From NCBI GenBank assembly GCA_004296815.1, contig SCVT01000184.1, forward strand, positions 1 to 14,259: a DNA stretch of 14,259 bases, read 5' to 3'. Shown here one piece after another: positions 9,667 through 14,098 of this stretch. The notes under the pieces are model-generated. The model was given only the letters and a program-made list of their open reading frames with translations, made no database searches and was not told the origin of the DNA. How positions within the stretch are numbered: the first letter of the stretch is position 1; each line of letters starts with the position of its first letter. Source of the stretch: Reyranella sp. (GTDB taxonomy: Bacteria > Pseudomonadota > Alphaproteobacteria > Reyranellales > Reyranellaceae). A program made the position numbers and the translations under genes.

Positions 9667-9691
9667 ATACTTGACTGGCCTACTCGGACTA
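9667..9691 (+). promoter_or_regulatory. Putative IscR type 1-like operator upstream of iscR
   Basis: The left arm ATACTTGACT (9667-9676) matches all ten bases of the E. coli IscR type 1 left half (ATASYYGACT). The right arm, CTACTCGG (9680-9687), is partial, giving 17 of 25 consensus positions overall. The core GACT-N3-CTACTCGGA (9673-9688) recurs on the minus strand at 11406-11391, before iscS. It lies about 160 bp upstream of iscR and overlaps the proposed -35 box, so autorepression by cluster-bound IscR is the simplest reading. Binding is inferred. Confidence 0.55.
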
Positions 9692-9698
9692 TTTAAAT
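9671..9698 (+). promoter_or_regulatory. Putative iscR operon promoter
   Basis: TTGACT (9671-9676, five of six of the -35 consensus) and TTAAAT (9693-9698, four of six of the -10) are 16 bases apart; TAAATC one base later would give 17. Both boxes are covered by the IscR-like element and by the inverted repeat at 9683-9703, the layout expected for a repressed promoter. Transcription from here would leave a leader of roughly 125 bases before the iscR start. Confidence 0.5.
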
Positions 9699-9703
9699 CC
9701 GAG
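9683..9703. promoter_or_regulatory. Inverted repeat over the iscR -10 region
   Basis: CTCGGA (9683-9688) and TCCGAG (9698-9703) are perfect 6-bp arms around a 9-base AT-rich spacer. The arm TACTCGGA (9681-9688) also occurs inverted at 11391-11398 in the second putative operator. It overlaps the first site, so it may be a second overlapping binding register for IscR or another Rrf2-type dimer. Confidence 0.5.
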
Positions 9704-9828
9704 CAGCCCAGTTGGTTTTTGTCCAGAACCCCGGTGGTGGGGCTGGCATATCTTAGTAACGCCTTGGTTTTCAAGACCTTTGGGCGTTCAGGTTCGAAGG
9801 CCGGCGATCCGGCCGTGAGGAGGATGCT

Positions 9829-10305
9829 GTGAAGCTCAGCACCAAGGGACGTTACGCCGTCATGGCGATGGTCGACCTGGCGCGTCACGCCCAGGCCAAG
9901 CCGGTTTCCCTGTCGGACATCGCGACCCGCCAGGAAATCTCCCTGTCATATCTCGAACAGCTCTTCGCCCGCCTGCGCCGCGCCGGCCTGGTGAAGAGCG
10001 TGCGCGGTCCGGGCGGCGGCTATCGCCTGGCACGCGGCTCGGCGGAAACCCGGGTTTCCGAGATCATCCTGGCCGTCGACGAGCCGATCAGCGCGACGCG
10101 CTGCACGGAGATGGGCGCCACCGGCTGCCGCGCCGACCGCAGCAAGTGCCTGACGCACGACCTGTGGGAAGAGCTCGGCAACCAGATCCACATGTTCCTG
10201 AACTCGGTCACCCTGATGGACGTGCTGGAGCGCAAGCTCACCACGCGGTTCATCGAGGCGCCGCCGGCCGCCGCCAATTCCGACTCGATGGCCGCGGCTA
10301 GCTAG
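9829..10305 (+). CDS. iscR: Rrf2-family iron-sulfur cluster regulator IscR
   Basis: A [2Fe-2S]-sensing transcription factor that adjusts iron-sulfur assembly to demand. The 158-residue protein has the Rrf2 winged helix: MKLSTKGRYAVMAMVDLA, then SLSYLEQLFARLRRAGLVKSVRGPGGGY (about 38-65), including Glu43, the residue that in E. coli separates type 1 from type 2 site recognition. Cluster ligands are Cys92, Cys100, Cys107 and His110 (C-X7-C-X6-C-X2-H), slightly wider than the E. coli C-X5-C-X5-C-X2-H. The C-terminal tail is Ala/Pro-rich. The start is GTG, supported by a strong GAGGAGGA (9817-9824) four bases upstream. It is the first gene of the isc operon, 10 bp before the NifS-like desulfurase. 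Autoregulation is likely, given the sites upstream. Confidence 0.95.
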   Translation: MKLSTKGRYAVMAMVDLARHAQAKPVSLSDIATRQEISLSYLEQLFARLRRAGLVKSVRGPGGGYRLARGSAETRVSEIILAVDEPISATRCTEMGATGCRADRSKCLTHDLWEELGNQIHMFLNSVTLMDVLERKLTTRFIEAPPAAANSDSMAAAS

Positions 10306-10315
10306 GGCGATCGCG

Positions 10316-11446
10316 ATGCCCGCGTCCGCGTACCTGGATCACAACGCCACCAGCCCCCTGCGGCCGGCGGCGTTCGATGCCATGGCCGAGGCGTTGCGCG
10401 CGGGCGGCAATCCCTCGTCGGTGCACAAGGTCGGGCGGGCGGCACGGGCCACCGTCGACCGGGCACGCCGCCAGGTCGCCGACCTCGTGGGGGCGCTGCC
10501 GGCCGAAGTGGTGTTCACCTCTGGTGGCACCGAGGCGAACAACATGGCCCTGCGCGGCGCGGGGCGCCGTCGGCTGCTGGTGTCGGCGGTGGAGCACGAG
10601 AGCGTGCGCAACGCGGCCCCCAATGCCGAAGTCATTCCCGTCGATGCCGACGGTGTCGTCGATCTCGCGGCCCTGGAGACGGCGCTCGCCGCGTCGGCCG
10701 AGCCCGCGCTGGTGTCGGTGATGCTGGCCAACAACGAGACCGGCGTGATGCAGCCGATCGCCGACGTGGCCCGGCTGGCCCGTGCGGCCGGTGCGCTGGT
10801 CCACTGCGACGCCGTCCAGGCCGCCGGCAAGATGCCTCTCAGCATCCACGGCCTCGGAGTAGACTATCTCACTCTCGCCGCCCACAAGCTCGGCGGCCCG
10901 ACCGGGGTGGGCGCCCTGGTCGTCCGTGCCGGCGCGCCCGTCGCCGCCGACCGCAAGGGCGGGGCGCAGGAGACCAACCGTCGGGCCGGCACCGAGAACC
11001 TGTCGGGTATCGTGGGCTTCGGTGCGGCCGCCACGGAGGCGCTGCGCGGGCTCGATGTCTCGGCGCTGCGCGACAAGCTCGAACTTTCTCTTGTCCAGAT
11101 CGCGCCGCAGGCGCGGGTCTACGGCGCGGGCGCCAAGCGCCTGGGCAACACGACATTCATTTCCATGCCGGGTGTTTCTGCGGAAACTCAGGTGATGGCG
11201 CTCGATCTTGCCGGTGTCTGCATCAGCGCAGGGTCGGCCTGCTCGTCGGGCAAGGTGCATCAGTCCGCCGTGCTGGCCGCCATGGGTGTGCCGGCGGCGG
11301 AAGCCGCCACCGCCGTCAGAATAAGCTTGGGCTGGAACACCGAATCCGCCGATATCGAACGCTTGATCGCGGCGTGGCGGGACCTATATATCCGAGTAGA
11401 GAAGTCGGATATTTCACAGGCCCTTTCTCAGGCTAGGGCAGCGTAG
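10316..11446 (+). CDS. NifS/IscS-like cysteine desulfurase (first of two in the operon)
   Basis: A PLP enzyme that converts cysteine to alanine and an enzyme-bound persulfide. The 376-residue protein begins with YLDHNATSPL, has FTSGGTEANN (67-76), VEHESVRN (92-99), HCDAVQAAGK (163-172), the PLP lysine in AAHKLGGPTG (Lys191), and the sulfur-carrying Cys309 in SAGSACSSGK. It is a group I (NifS/IscS) enzyme but is shorter than IscS, and lacks the IscS C-terminal tail that in E. coli contacts IscU. It lies 10 bp after iscR and 18 bp before iscS. Its last codons (about 357-367) contain A- or T-ending codons such as CTA, CGA, GTA and TCA, unusual in this GC-rich gene, where a putative IscR operator is embedded. 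Its partner is unknown: it may feed another scaffold, a SUF protein or tRNA thiolation. Confidence 0.92.
   Translation: MPASAYLDHNATSPLRPAAFDAMAEALRAGGNPSSVHKVGRAARATVDRARRQVADLVGALPAEVVFTSGGTEANNMALRGAGRRRLLVSAVEHESVRNAAPNAEVIPVDADGVVDLAALETALAASAEPALVSVMLANNETGVMQPIADVARLARAAGALVHCDAVQAAGKMPLSIHGLGVDYLTLAAHKLGGPTGVGALVVRAGAPVAADRKGGAQETNRRAGTENLSGIVGFGAAATEALRGLDVSALRDKLELSLVQIAPQARVYGAGAKRLGNTTFISMPGVSAETQVMALDLAGVCISAGSACSSGKVHQSAVLAAMGVPAAEAATAVRISLGWNTESADIERLIAAWRDLYIRVEKSDISQALSQARAA
11363..11390 (+). promoter_or_regulatory. Putative internal promoter for iscS and downstream genes
   Basis: TTGATC (11363-11368) and TATATA (11385-11390) each match four of six consensus bases and are 16 bases apart, inside the 3' end of the NifS-like gene. 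The AT-rich -10 stands out against very GC-rich surroundings. The operator at 11388-11412 begins within the -10 box and would cover the start point near 11397, leaving a leader of about 68 bases before the iscS ATG. Confidence 0.5.
11388..11412. promoter_or_regulatory. Putative IscR type 1-like operator inside the NifS-like gene, upstream of iscS
   Basis: ATATCCGA (11388-11395) and TCGGATAT (11405-11412) are perfect 8-bp inverted arms with a 9-base spacer, 25 bp in all, the same length and geometry as the E. coli IscR type 1 site, matching 19 of 25 consensus positions in either orientation. On the minus strand it reads GACT-N3-CTACTCGGA, the core also found upstream of iscR at 9673-9688. It ends 52 bp before iscS, and its coding strand uses codons that are rare in the neighbourhood, as if the DNA signal rather than the protein were constrained. 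Confidence 0.65.
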
Positions 11447-11464
11447 GAGTTTCAAGGGGTTAGC

Positions 11465-12703
11465 ATGACAGCCATTACCCAAATCCGGCGCAACGACCAG
11501 CCGATCTACCTGGACTATCAGGCGACCACGCCGATGGACCCGCGGGTGCTCGAGGCCATGATGCCGTACTTCACCTACAAGTTCGGCAACCCAGGCTCGC
11601 GCAGCCATGCCTACGGCTGGGAGGCCGAGGAGGGTGTCGAGAAGGCGCGCGGCCAGATCGCCAAGCTGATCGGGGCGGACGAGAAGGAAGTGATCTTCAC
11701 CTCGGGCGCGACCGAGTCGAACAACCTCGCCATCAAGGGCGTCGCCGAGTTCTACAAGGACCGCAAGAACCACATCATCACCACGGTGACGGAGCACAAG
11801 TGCGTGCTCGATACCTGCCGCCATCTCGAGCAGCAGGGCTTCGAGGTGACCTACCTGCCGGTCCAGCAGAACGGCCTGCTCGATCTCGACGTGCTGCGCG
11901 CGGCGATCACCGACAAGACGGTGCTCGTGTCGGTCATGGCGGTGAACAACGAGATCGGCGTCATCCAGCCGCTGGCCGAGATCGGCAAGATCTGCCGCGA
12001 GAAGAAGGTGTTCTTCCACACTGATGCGGCCCAGGCCGCCGGCAAGATCCCGCTCGACGTCGAGGCGCTGAACGTCGACCTGATGAGCATCTCGGGCCAC
12101 AAGATCTACGGCCCCAAGGGCATCGGCGCGCTCTACGTCCGCCGCAAGCCGCGCGTGCGCCTCGTGCCGCTGATCGTGGGCGGCGGCCAGGAGCGCGGCT
12201 TCCGCTCGGGCACCCTGCCGACGCCGCTCTGTGTCGGCCTGGGCGAAGCGGCCGAGATCTGCATGAAGGAAATGGACGGCGAGGCCAAGCGGCTGAAGAA
12301 GCTGCAGGACCGCATGCTGAAGGGCCTGCAGTCGAAGCTGTCGGACCTCGTGATCAACGGCGACCTCGAGCACCGCATCCCGGGCAACCTCAACATCAGC
12401 TTCGCCTATGTCGAGGGCGAGTCGCTGATGATGGGCATCAAGGGCCTGTCGGTCTCGTCCGGTTCGGCCTGCACCTCGGCCTCGCTCGAGCCCAGCTACG
12501 TGCTGCGTGCGCTCGGTGTCGAGGAGGACATGGCACACACGTCGCTGCGCATCGGCCTTGGCCGCTTCACGACGGAGCAGGAGATCGACACCGCCGTCGA
12601 CGAATTGGTCCGGCACGTGACGAAGCTGCGCGAGATGAGCCCGCTCTGGGAAATGGCCCAGGAGGGAATCGACATCAAGTCCATCGAATGGGCTGCCCAC
12701 TGA
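11465..12703 (+). CDS. iscS: Cysteine desulfurase IscS
   Basis: The main sulfur donor of the ISC machinery; it passes persulfide sulfur to IscU and usually also to tRNA-thiolation proteins. The 412-residue protein closely resembles canonical IscS (404 in E. coli). It has [15 protein letters not shown] (15-29), [10 protein letters not shown] (78-87), the PLP lysine Lys213 in [10 protein letters not shown], and catalytic Cys336 in the loop [17 protein letters not shown]. The C-terminus [11 protein letters not shown] is the conserved tail that contacts IscU. The ATG is preceded by AAGGGG (11454-11459) at five bases. It follows the NifS-like gene by 18 bp and is separated from iscU by 42 bp containing a perfect hairpin. 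A putative IscR-controlled promoter lies just upstream. Confidence 0.97.
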
Positions 12704-12745: not shown

Positions 12746-13156
12746 ATGGCCTACAGCGAAAAGCTGATCGATCACTACGAGAACCCCCGCAACATCGGCG
12801 CGCTCGACAAGAACGCCGAGGATGTCGGCACCGGTCTGGTCGGCGCACCGGCCTGCGGCGACGTCATGAAGCTGCAGATCAAGGTCGGCCCGGATGGGCT
12901 GATCGAGGATGCCAAGTTCAAGACCTTCGGCTGCGGCTCGGCCATCGCCTCGAGCTCGCTCGTCACCGAGTGGGTCAAGGGCAAGACGGTCGACGAGGCC
13001 GAGACGATCAAGAACACCGACATCGCCAGGCACCTCGCCCTGCCGCCGGTGAAGATCCACTGCTCGGTCCTGGCCGAGGACGCGATCAAGGCGGCGATCG
13101 CCGACTATCGCGCCAAGGCGGCCAAGAAGGACGAACCCAAGGCAGCGGCTGAGTAG
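12746..13156 (+). CDS. iscU: Iron-sulfur cluster scaffold protein IscU
   Basis: The scaffold on which [2Fe-2S] clusters are assembled from IscS sulfur and iron. The 136-residue protein has the three cluster cysteines Cys37 (GAPACGD), Cys63 (KTFGCGSAIASSS) and Cys106 (KIHCSVLAEDA), with Asp39 and His105 as the auxiliary ligands. LPPVK (99-103) is the HscA recognition motif, matching the presence of hscB and hscA downstream. The last 15 or so residues are a Lys/Ala/Glu tail. The ATG has a strong GAGGAGA ribosome site five bases upstream. The stop is 20 bp before iscA. All key residues are present, so the protein should be functional. Confidence 0.97.
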   Translation: MAYSEKLIDHYENPRNIGALDKNAEDVGTGLVGAPACGDVMKLQIKVGPDGLIEDAKFKTFGCGSAIASSSLVTEWVKGKTVDEAETIKNTDIARHLALPPVKIHCSVLAEDAIKAAIADYRAKAAKKDEPKAAAE

Positions 13157-13176: not shown

Positions 13177-13575
13177 ATGAGCACGACGACCGATACGGCG
13201 AAGCCCGCCGTCGCAGCTGCCGCGCCGCGGCCCCGCCGCGCGCGCCCGCAGTTGATGACGGTGACGCCGCTTGCCGCCGACCGCGTGAAGGCGCTGATCG
13301 ACGGCCGCGGCAAGCCGACCGCCGGCATCCGCATCGGCGTGCGCACCAAGGGCTGCTCGGGCCTCAGCTACACGCTGGAGTTCGCCGACAAGCAGGAGCC
13401 GATGGACGAGGTGGTCCAGGCCGGCGACATCAAGCTGCTGATCGACCCCAAGGCCTCGCTGTTCCTGATCGGGACCGAGATGGACTACGAGGAAGAGAAG
13501 CTGAAGTCGGGGTTCGTGTTCAGGAACCCGAATGAAAAGGGCCGCTGCGGCTGCGGCGAATCCTTCCACGTCTGA
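13177..13575 (+). CDS. iscA: A-type iron-sulfur carrier IscA with an N-terminal extension
   Basis: Carries iron or iron-sulfur clusters from the scaffold to target proteins. The 132-residue product has the HesB/IscA fold with Cys60 (TKGCSGLSY), Cys124 and Cys126 (GRCGCGESF). From residue 27 (MTVTPLAADRVKALI) it matches the usual length of about 107. Residues 1-26 form an extra low-complexity segment rich in Ala, Pro and Arg (for example AAAAPRPRRARP). The upstream ATG is chosen because GGAG (13163-13166) precedes it and an 11-base sequence identical to the iscU start region (AGAGTGTCATG) is present. The internal ATG at 13255 has no ribosome site but cannot be excluded. ErpA is an alternative name for such carriers, but the operon position favours IscA. 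Confidence 0.93.
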   Translation: MSTTTDTAKPAVAAAAPRPRRARPQLMTVTPLAADRVKALIDGRGKPTAGIRIGVRTKGCSGLSYTLEFADKQEPMDEVVQAGDIKLLIDPKASLFLIGTEMDYEEEKLKSGFVFRNPNEKGRCGCGESFHV

Positions 13576-13585
13576 GTCTTAAATC

Positions 13586-14098
13586 ATGGATCATTTCGCG
13601 CGGCTGGGATTGCCGGCGGCGCTCGATATCGATGCGTCGACGCTCGATCGAGCCTACTTTGACTTGCAACGCAAATGGCACCCGGACCGGTTCGTATCGA
13701 AGCCGCCGGAAGAGCGTGCACGAGCCTCGGTCGAGGCCGCGTCGCTCAACGAGGCCTATCGGACACTGAAGGAGCCGCTGAGCCGCGCGATCTATCTCGC
13801 GGAGCTGAAAGGCGTGGCGCTGCCGGGCGACGGCAAGACCATCGACGATCCGGAATTGCTCACGGAGGCGATGGACGCTCGCGAGGAATTGCAGGAGGCG
13901 AGCAGCGTCGCCGAAGTCGATGCGCTGGCGAGGTTCGCGCGGGAAGACCTGGAGAAGGGGCTCGTGGACCTGCTGCGCATGTTCTCGGCCAACGACAAGG
14001 CTGCCATTAGAAGGACGCTTCTTCGCCTGCGCTACCTCGACAAGTTCGCCGAGGAAGCGCGCGCGCGACGCATGAACCTGGAACGATCGAAAAGATGA
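13586..14098 (+). CDS. hscB: J-domain co-chaperone HscB
   Basis: Delivers IscU with its cluster to the HscA chaperone and stimulates HscA ATPase. The 170-residue protein equals E. coli HscB in length. The N-terminal J domain has [16 protein letters not shown] with the essential HPD at 32-34, then [20 protein letters not shown] (about 52-71). The C-terminal helical domain includes [15 protein letters not shown], the typical IscU-binding segment. No zinc-binding cysteines precede the J domain. It begins 10 bp after iscA without a good ribosome site, suggesting translational coupling, and its stop overlaps the hscA start as ATGA. All signatures expected of the family are present. Confidence 0.95.

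Follow-up and report, generated by a model that had tools for sequence, protein, structure and literature searches.

The 3' end of the NifS-like cysteine desulfurase gene in the isc operon of Reyranella very probably harbors an IscR type 1 operator, which lies over an intragenic promoter for iscS-iscU-iscA-hscB-hscA and would be repressed by holo-IscR. Besides encoding protein, the last 27 codons of this gene would thus hold further information, namely a promoter together with an operator that extends from the middle of the -10 element to about +15. Strong support for reading the element as an operator over a promoter comes from its conservation throughout the genus, from codon locking, from similar boxes at two other promoters and from the residues of IscR itself.

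The window, i.e. the whole stretch analysed, spans 14,259 bases of alphaproteobacterial DNA and represents one contig of a 4.64-Mb draft genome. Its genes are arranged in the order iscR, NifS-like desulfurase, iscS, iscU, iscA, hscB and the start of hscA (the latter assigned from the earlier note, which was made from the sequence alone, and from the start of its sequence). From a divergent hydrolase gene through hscB, the same order was found in 28/28 named loci (L052-L079; a 29th, L112, was left out of this count), as far as their contigs extend. The gap separating the NifS-like stop codon from the iscS ATG has the same length in the window and in 44/49 distinct Reyranella loci. The short iscS leader (11447-11467 in the window, and its counterparts in relatives) was also well conserved, with GGGGTTAGCATG in 45/49 and TTTCAAGGGGTTAGCATG in 30/49 loci, perhaps beyond what a Shine-Dalgarno sequence needs. 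Feature coordinates are collected in the table.

Table. Features of the isc region of the window, with the putative regulatory elements.
Feature	Position	Strand	Remarks
iscR promoter box A, ATACTTGACTGGCCTACTCGGACTA, includes -35 TTGACT	9667..9691	+	17/25 match to type 1 consensus
iscR promoter box B, AAATCCGAGCAGCCCAGTTGGTTTT, weaker	9695..9719	+	joint pattern, 2 mismatches
iscR, GTG start	9829..10305	+	TIGR02010 192.4 bits, below cut-off 207.55; Rrf2 superfamily TIGR00738 above cut-off
NifS-like cysteine desulfurase, element in last 27 codons	10316..11446	+	TIGR03402 338 bits, below cut-off 530.75
-35-like hexamer TTGATC of putative intragenic promoter	11363..11368	+	TTGAT in 49/49 distinct Reyranella loci; Leu350 always TTG
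-10-like hexamer TATATA	11385..11390	+	TATAT 49/49, 16-bp spacer 49/49; Leu357/Tyr358 codons
IscR type 1-like operator, overlaps -10 and predicted start	11388..11412	+	19/25; core CCGAG-N8-TCGG 49/49
Predicted transcription start region, about 11398	11396..11400	+	predicted from the -10-like hexamer
Gap from NifS-like stop to iscS ATG	11447..11464	+	18 nt, Shine-Dalgarno-like AAGGGG
iscS, first gene 3' of the putative intragenic promoter	11465..12703	+	TIGR02006 708.5 bits, above cut-off
iscU	12746..13156	+	TIGR01999 above cut-off
iscA-type A-type carrier	13177..13575	+	TIGR00049 above cut-off; TIGR02011 below cut-off
hscB, followed by hscA start at window edge	13586..14098	+	TIGR00714 above cut-off

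The earlier note had described a 25-bp site with perfect 8-bp inverted arms and 19/25 consensus positions, a TTGATC-N16-TATATA pair and a distance of 52 bp to iscS; all of these were found at the positions claimed. The site, ATATCCGAGTAGAGAAGTCGGATAT, is composed of a left arm ATATCCGA (11388-11395) and a right arm TCGGATAT (11405-11412) separated by nine nucleotides, and ends 52 bp before the iscS ATG. It begins 3 bp into the conserved -10-like hexamer, the promoter being recognised by its sequence only, and an alternative -10 register (TATATC, 11387-11392) is available. Both hexamers match the sigma-70 consensus at only four of six positions each. Base 11398 is A or G in 49/49 loci, which also suits the R of the type 1 consensus. 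This E. coli consensus, ATASYYGACTRWWWYAGTCRRSTAT as quoted in PMC6599224, is matched by the site better than by any other 25-mer on both strands of the window, and the corresponding sites of the 49 Reyranella loci matched it at 16-22 of 25 positions.

Taken by itself, the palindrome was unremarkable: two perfect 8-bp N9 palindromes occurred in the window, against 0.78 expected per shuffle, and palindromy was dropped as stand-alone evidence. The other one (2610-2634) is at chance level. The consensus score was borderline on a single sequence, since 19/25 or more was reached in 8/200 first-order Markov shuffles of the window. The exact arms with their N9 spacing occurred only once in the 4.64-Mb draft genome (none in the reversed control). 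It is conservation, and not these single-sequence statistics, that decides that the site exceeds chance.

Conservation was examined in 49 distinct loci, obtained from 65 rows with at least 88% IscR identity by dropping 16 that were exact duplicates across 419 bp. One of the 49 is the locus of the window itself (L002), and a second copy of the window (L001) was excluded beforehand. The genus set included Reyranella soli, R. aquatilis and metagenome-assembled genomes filed as Rhodospirillales, Reyranella, Enhydrobacter, Asaia and others. These loci are related sequences rather than independent trials, and the rest of the same gene together with iscS served as control. The complete arrangement (TTGAT, exactly 16 bp, TATAT, and CCGAG-N8-TCGG within the box) was present in 49/49 loci, and 12/25 operator positions were invariant. 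The NifS-like proteins of these loci display 70-78% identity to that of the window. The earlier note had suggested that the arms be compared among relatives for conservation beyond codon needs; the box core was indeed kept throughout and its codons were locked beyond the needs of the protein.

This locking was confined to the element. Among 107 fully conserved degenerate residues of the gene, only four were encoded by a single codon in all 49 loci, and all four fall in the promoter-operator: Leu350 (TTG), Tyr358 (TAT), Arg360 (CGA) and Ser364 (TCG). TTG accounts for 13% of Leu codons in the NifS-like gene, yet it is the only one used at Leu350; this locked TTG forming the -35 had not been part of the earlier note, nor had the weaker box B upstream of iscR (see below). 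Leu357 was CTA in 44 and TTA in five loci, two codons that make up 3.4% and 0.7% of gene-wide Leu usage, and 44 of the 55 CTA codons counted across the NifS-like genes sit at this position. Where the amino acid itself varied, the constraint was still visible: codon 359 encodes Ile (36), Thr (7), Val (5) or Asn (1) with a C as third base in 49/49, and codon 361 reads GTA (29), GTG (16), GCA (2) or GCG (2), ending in a purine in 49/49 whereas GTC represents 39% of Val codons. The earlier note had listed CTA, CGA, GTA, ATT and TCA as departures from the local G/C-ending codon habit. CTA (44 CTA and 5 TTA of 49) and CGA (49/49) were borne out, GTA (29/49) and ATT (30/49) less clearly so, and TCA provides no evidence, being rare at its column (two among the listed Ser codons) and located outside the right arm.

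Excess synonymous identity in ten-codon windows pointed to the same region. The top twelve windows of the gene all begin at codons 348-364, and the best one (355-364) reached 0.41, compared with a gene mean of 0.12 (sd 0.086) and a best iscS window of 0.30. Likewise, protein conservation tracks the box: columns 364-366 were conserved at 100, 94 and 90%, and their neighbours 362-363 and 367-368 at only 29-43%.

Similar boxes were found at two other promoters. Upstream of iscR, sequences resembling box A were present in 48/48 readable loci (L023 is cut off). The window's box A is similar to TTGACCAATTTACTCGG, which lies upstream of iscR in E. coli, and the commonest form in the genus, judged by eye, is TTGACCAACCTACTCGGG, close to the E. 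coli iscR upstream TTGACCAATTTACTCGGG, the window copy being more divergent. The right half of box B occurred in 48/48 readable loci, both halves loosely in 45, and a CCGAG left half in only 28. In the window, box B and the hidden box are offset from their own -35 by 24 and 25 bp, respectively. Motifs were searched as patterns with mismatches. With at most two mismatches, the joint pattern was specific, occurring at three to four distinct places in each of six genomes (22 in total; 0-1 in the reversed control), including the hidden site in 6/6, a position upstream of rpoH in 6/6 and the iscR promoter in 4/6 (missed in G010 and G014). G010 displayed two more type 1-like places, L132 (G010:C6:130770-130794) and G010:C17:1476153-1476177, with one and two mismatches, respectively. 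A short core, CCGAG-N7-CTCGG, was searched in 61 genomes and was uninformative, its frequency being about that of the reversed control among the matches listed. The Rhodobacter Iron-Rhodo-box was also set aside as a motif, since it measures 19 bp whereas the boxes described here fit the E. coli type 1 site.

The second promoter is that of rpoH, encoding sigma-32. Its boxes (L179-L207; G000:C66:1470-1494 in the window's genome) lie about 70-170 bp upstream of the gene and were tabulated for 29/30 genomes (27 Reyranella and two sister-genus genomes), one partial hit being dropped. The best 25-mer matched at 18 or more positions in 26/29 promoters and at 17 in the three others. In 10/29, the two best 25-mers were separate boxes 38-42 bp apart with, by eye, TTGAC between them. 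A pattern derived for the rpoH site matched in 40/62 genomes and was discarded as a count of rpoH sites because many of its rows were the hidden site itself. Just 3' of the second rpoH box, 26/29 promoters displayed a repeat, TTAGCA(G/C)TC-N9-GAGTGCTAA (L179-L206), which we take to be CIRCE-like; such an arrangement suggests that sigma-32 could be under joint control by IscR and HrcA. In Caulobacter, IscR is reported to bind the rpoH region (PMC11475020), and Reyranella and Caulobacter may have in common that their heat-shock sigma factor is controlled by IscR.

The regulator encoded in the window is consistent with these boxes. Residues S40, Y41, E43, Q44 and R59 are identical to the DNA-contact residues of E. 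coli IscR, and the cluster ligands could be aligned (Cys 92, 100 and 107, and the His of CLTH). Nevertheless, transfer of the E. coli motif is not automatic, since the IscR motifs obtained by ChIP-seq in Caulobacter, another alphaproteobacterium, differ from E. coli type 1 and the isc promoter of that organism displays no more than low similarity to its type II motif (PMC11475020).

What was observed is the sequence, its conservation in DNA, its reappearance at other promoters and the lineages to which it is confined; that IscR binds and represses, that clusters matter, where transcription starts and how large a share the internal promoter has relative to read-through from the iscR promoter are inferred. 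Exclusion of RNA polymerase by holo-IscR at type 1 sites is known for E. coli. In P. aeruginosa, it was both proposed and tested (PMC6599224). By analogy, when clusters are plentiful, [2Fe-2S]-IscR would occupy the Reyranella operator and polymerase would be excluded. When clusters are scarce, IscR would lose its cluster and depart, and the promoter would add transcripts for iscS-iscU-iscA-hscB-hscA, starting near 11398, still within the NifS-like gene and some 67 nt upstream of iscS. Cluster assembly could then increase without IscR and the first desulfurase rising in step. The earlier note had gone further and proposed that iscS-hscA be induced separately from iscR and the first desulfurase. 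A second entry point into the operon bearing an IscR box is retained, but separate induction is not established since boxes for this regulator are also present at the iscR promoter and, with genes 18 nt apart, read-through is likely. As both promoters carry IscR boxes, the internal one would add dosage or shift the ratio of products, and a different signal need not apply; read-through from the iscR promoter may dominate.

Other explanations were weighed against an operator over a promoter. The main alternative is that the palindrome forms an mRNA hairpin between cistrons, a processing or stability signal setting the proportion of iscR-nifS to iscS-hscA message, and not a DNA operator. As RNA, the stem gave good folds for the window (z -2.5) and for one relative (z -4.2), and in E. 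coli the uncoupling of iscR from iscSUA takes place on the transcript, by means of RyhB (PMC6956336). However, two of the four folded sequences were no better than many of their shuffles (64 and 24 of 200 folded as well), and the stem was not maintained by compensatory changes: pair 9-17 is G-G in 24/49 loci, pairs 4-22, 3-23 and 2-24 are broken in 8, 4 and 3 of 49, and no compensatory change was recorded in pairs 1-8, a C-G for T-A replacement being found at pair 10-16 in 2/49. Moreover, the -35 and -10, which lie beyond the stem, are locked to the same degree, and similar boxes precede the coding starts of iscR and rpoH. Folding and missing compensation thus led us to reject the hairpin as main explanation, and we consider it improbable.

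The position of the site 52 bp before iscS, in a gene for which transcription is very likely, also brings to mind a roadblock, in which IscR bound within the operon would halt polymerases that started at the iscR promoter, the site itself having hardly any promoter activity or none. Such an action is conceivable for a dimer sitting on a near-perfect palindrome. A pure roadblock has no need of the -35, spacer and -10 that are conserved in 49/49 loci, and we regard it as improbable as sole function, although such a role could exist beside that of the promoter.

That the ligand is an Rrf2-family regulator other than IscR appears a remote prospect. Besides IscR, five genomes contained two to five further matches each above the family cut-off (18 in total), and six of these 18 paralogues were read. 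One of the six, L176, keeps YLEQ in its recognition helix but is devoid of the Cys ligands, the other five are without YLEQ, and SYLEQLF was present in none of the six (a further one, L178, gave no alignment). The boxes themselves fit the type 1 consensus of E. coli, and they adjoin iscR. Finally, chance similarity combined with ordinary protein conservation or codon bias would account for the palindrome and the score by themselves, but the codon test makes it very unlikely, rare codons being fixed over 49 loci despite the divergence of the proteins, with nearly fixed residues (364-366) flanked by variable ones and the element absent from other lineages, so that its probability is negligible.

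The distribution of the operator-promoter element was followed in 76 genomes of the order. The pattern TATATNNCCGASYNNNNNRSTCGGRYA was present exactly once in 60 of them (reversed control, 0 in all 76), i.e. in 59/65 Reyranella, 1/10 genomes from other genera of the family and 0/1 from another family. Among the six Reyranella misses, five have the element altered at its 3' edge (G023, which is L037, G082, G065, G073 and G077) and the sixth (G016, 77% complete) yielded no NifS-like hit at E values up to 1e-60. The element was therefore found in 64/65 genomes of the genus, the remaining one being that in which the gene gave no hit. In the one sister genus that is positive (G094, 1/1 genome), neither the location of the site nor its -35 differs from Reyranella. 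In three further sister genera, the end of the gene could be read in eight genomes, all of them devoid of the site (in a ninth, G087, it is truncated). Outside these groups, the core pattern occurred in 0/63 distinct loci from other lineages (Azospirillum, Thalassospira and others, many of them with downstream genes other than iscS). Best type 1 scores were 13-18 in these 63 loci versus 16-22 in Reyranella; since the two ranges overlap, lineages are not separated by score alone, contrary to the core pattern, which does separate them.

Most simply, these data suggest that the element arose once, in an ancestor of Reyranella and its nearest genus, within an existing reading frame. Comparison by eye revealed DLYIR in Reyranella where the eight sister genomes have DLYRR and similar sequences, with Arg for Ile. 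One may speculate, as a rather unlikely scenario, that the operator wrote part of the protein: the desulfurase tail would have changed in the ancestor so that its DNA could hold an IscR site (codon 359 passing from Arg to mostly Ile, and Ser-Asp-Ile 364-366 becoming nearly fixed), and a single dimer would both repress the internal promoter and block read-through. If so, one Fe-S sensor would set the ratio of the regulator and first desulfurase to the IscSUA-HscBA machine.

Among known systems, the closest by description is promoter P3 of the Rhodobacter sphaeroides isc-suf operon. Situated inside iscS and feeding the suf genes, it surpasses all other sense promoters of that operon in strength. 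IscR binds to it, and its repression there was similar in high and low iron (PMC6956336). Like the Reyranella element, P3 thus lies within the first desulfurase gene after iscR in a two-desulfurase operon and feeds assembly genes. In contrast, P3 serves suf and not iscSUA-hscBA, and the portions of PMC6956336 dealing with P3 describe no type 1 palindrome for it. Furthermore, the IscR of R. sphaeroides follows a single-Cys ligation scheme (PMC4618611), unlike the three Cys and His of the window's IscR. An extra IscR-binding site within an operon was also described for R. sphaeroides, in the transcript running from hemP-irpA-bfd-bfr to RSP_1545-1543; that site is a 19-bp Iron-Rhodo-box and not a type 1 site, and its location relative to coding sequence is not stated in the relevant portion of PMC4618611.

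Regarding the box itself, the resemblance is with isc sites A and B of P. aeruginosa and with the E. coli iscR upstream region, where 25-bp sites overlap promoter elements (PMC6599224). The two P. aeruginosa sites match the consensus at 68% and 76% and the Reyranella site at 76% (PMC6599224 for the former). Those of P. aeruginosa and E. coli precede iscR, whereas the Reyranella site is single and embedded in the codons of the second gene. RyhB of E. coli likewise allows iscR and the assembly genes to be expressed in different ratios. It does so post-transcriptionally, through a small RNA that lowers the downstream genes (PMC6956336), whereas the Reyranella element would add transcripts.

An IscR-bound promoter in iscS is thus of a known kind, and the novelty, within the open literature searched, is a type 1 box that is embedded in coding sequence and overlies a probable promoter of iscS. 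This search returned no description of the Reyranella site and nothing combining IscR, an internal promoter and the isc operon; for Reyranella and IscR together, only unrelated work was retrieved, as judged by titles. The Reyranella site and Rhodobacter P3 together suggest that an IscR-bound entry in the first desulfurase gene may have been acquired on more than one occasion among two-desulfurase isc operons, an idea for which the present element provides an exact, testable operator. It also represents a regulatory site fixed inside codons throughout a genus, where the constraints exerted by protein, codons and operator can be separated base by base. Annotation restricted to intergenic regulatory sites would overlook it.

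Two further observations concern sister genus g27. Its iscR promoter (L158, L160, L161 and L163) reads CCTATATCCGACT-N5-AGTCGG, a putative -10 and box almost the same as those of the hidden iscS promoter of Reyranella. In L158 and L160, the frame at the 3' end of the NifS-like gene continues, before iscS, across an insert in which CTCTCCCCGC-like inverted repeats abound, as if the end of the gene had captured a repeat element.
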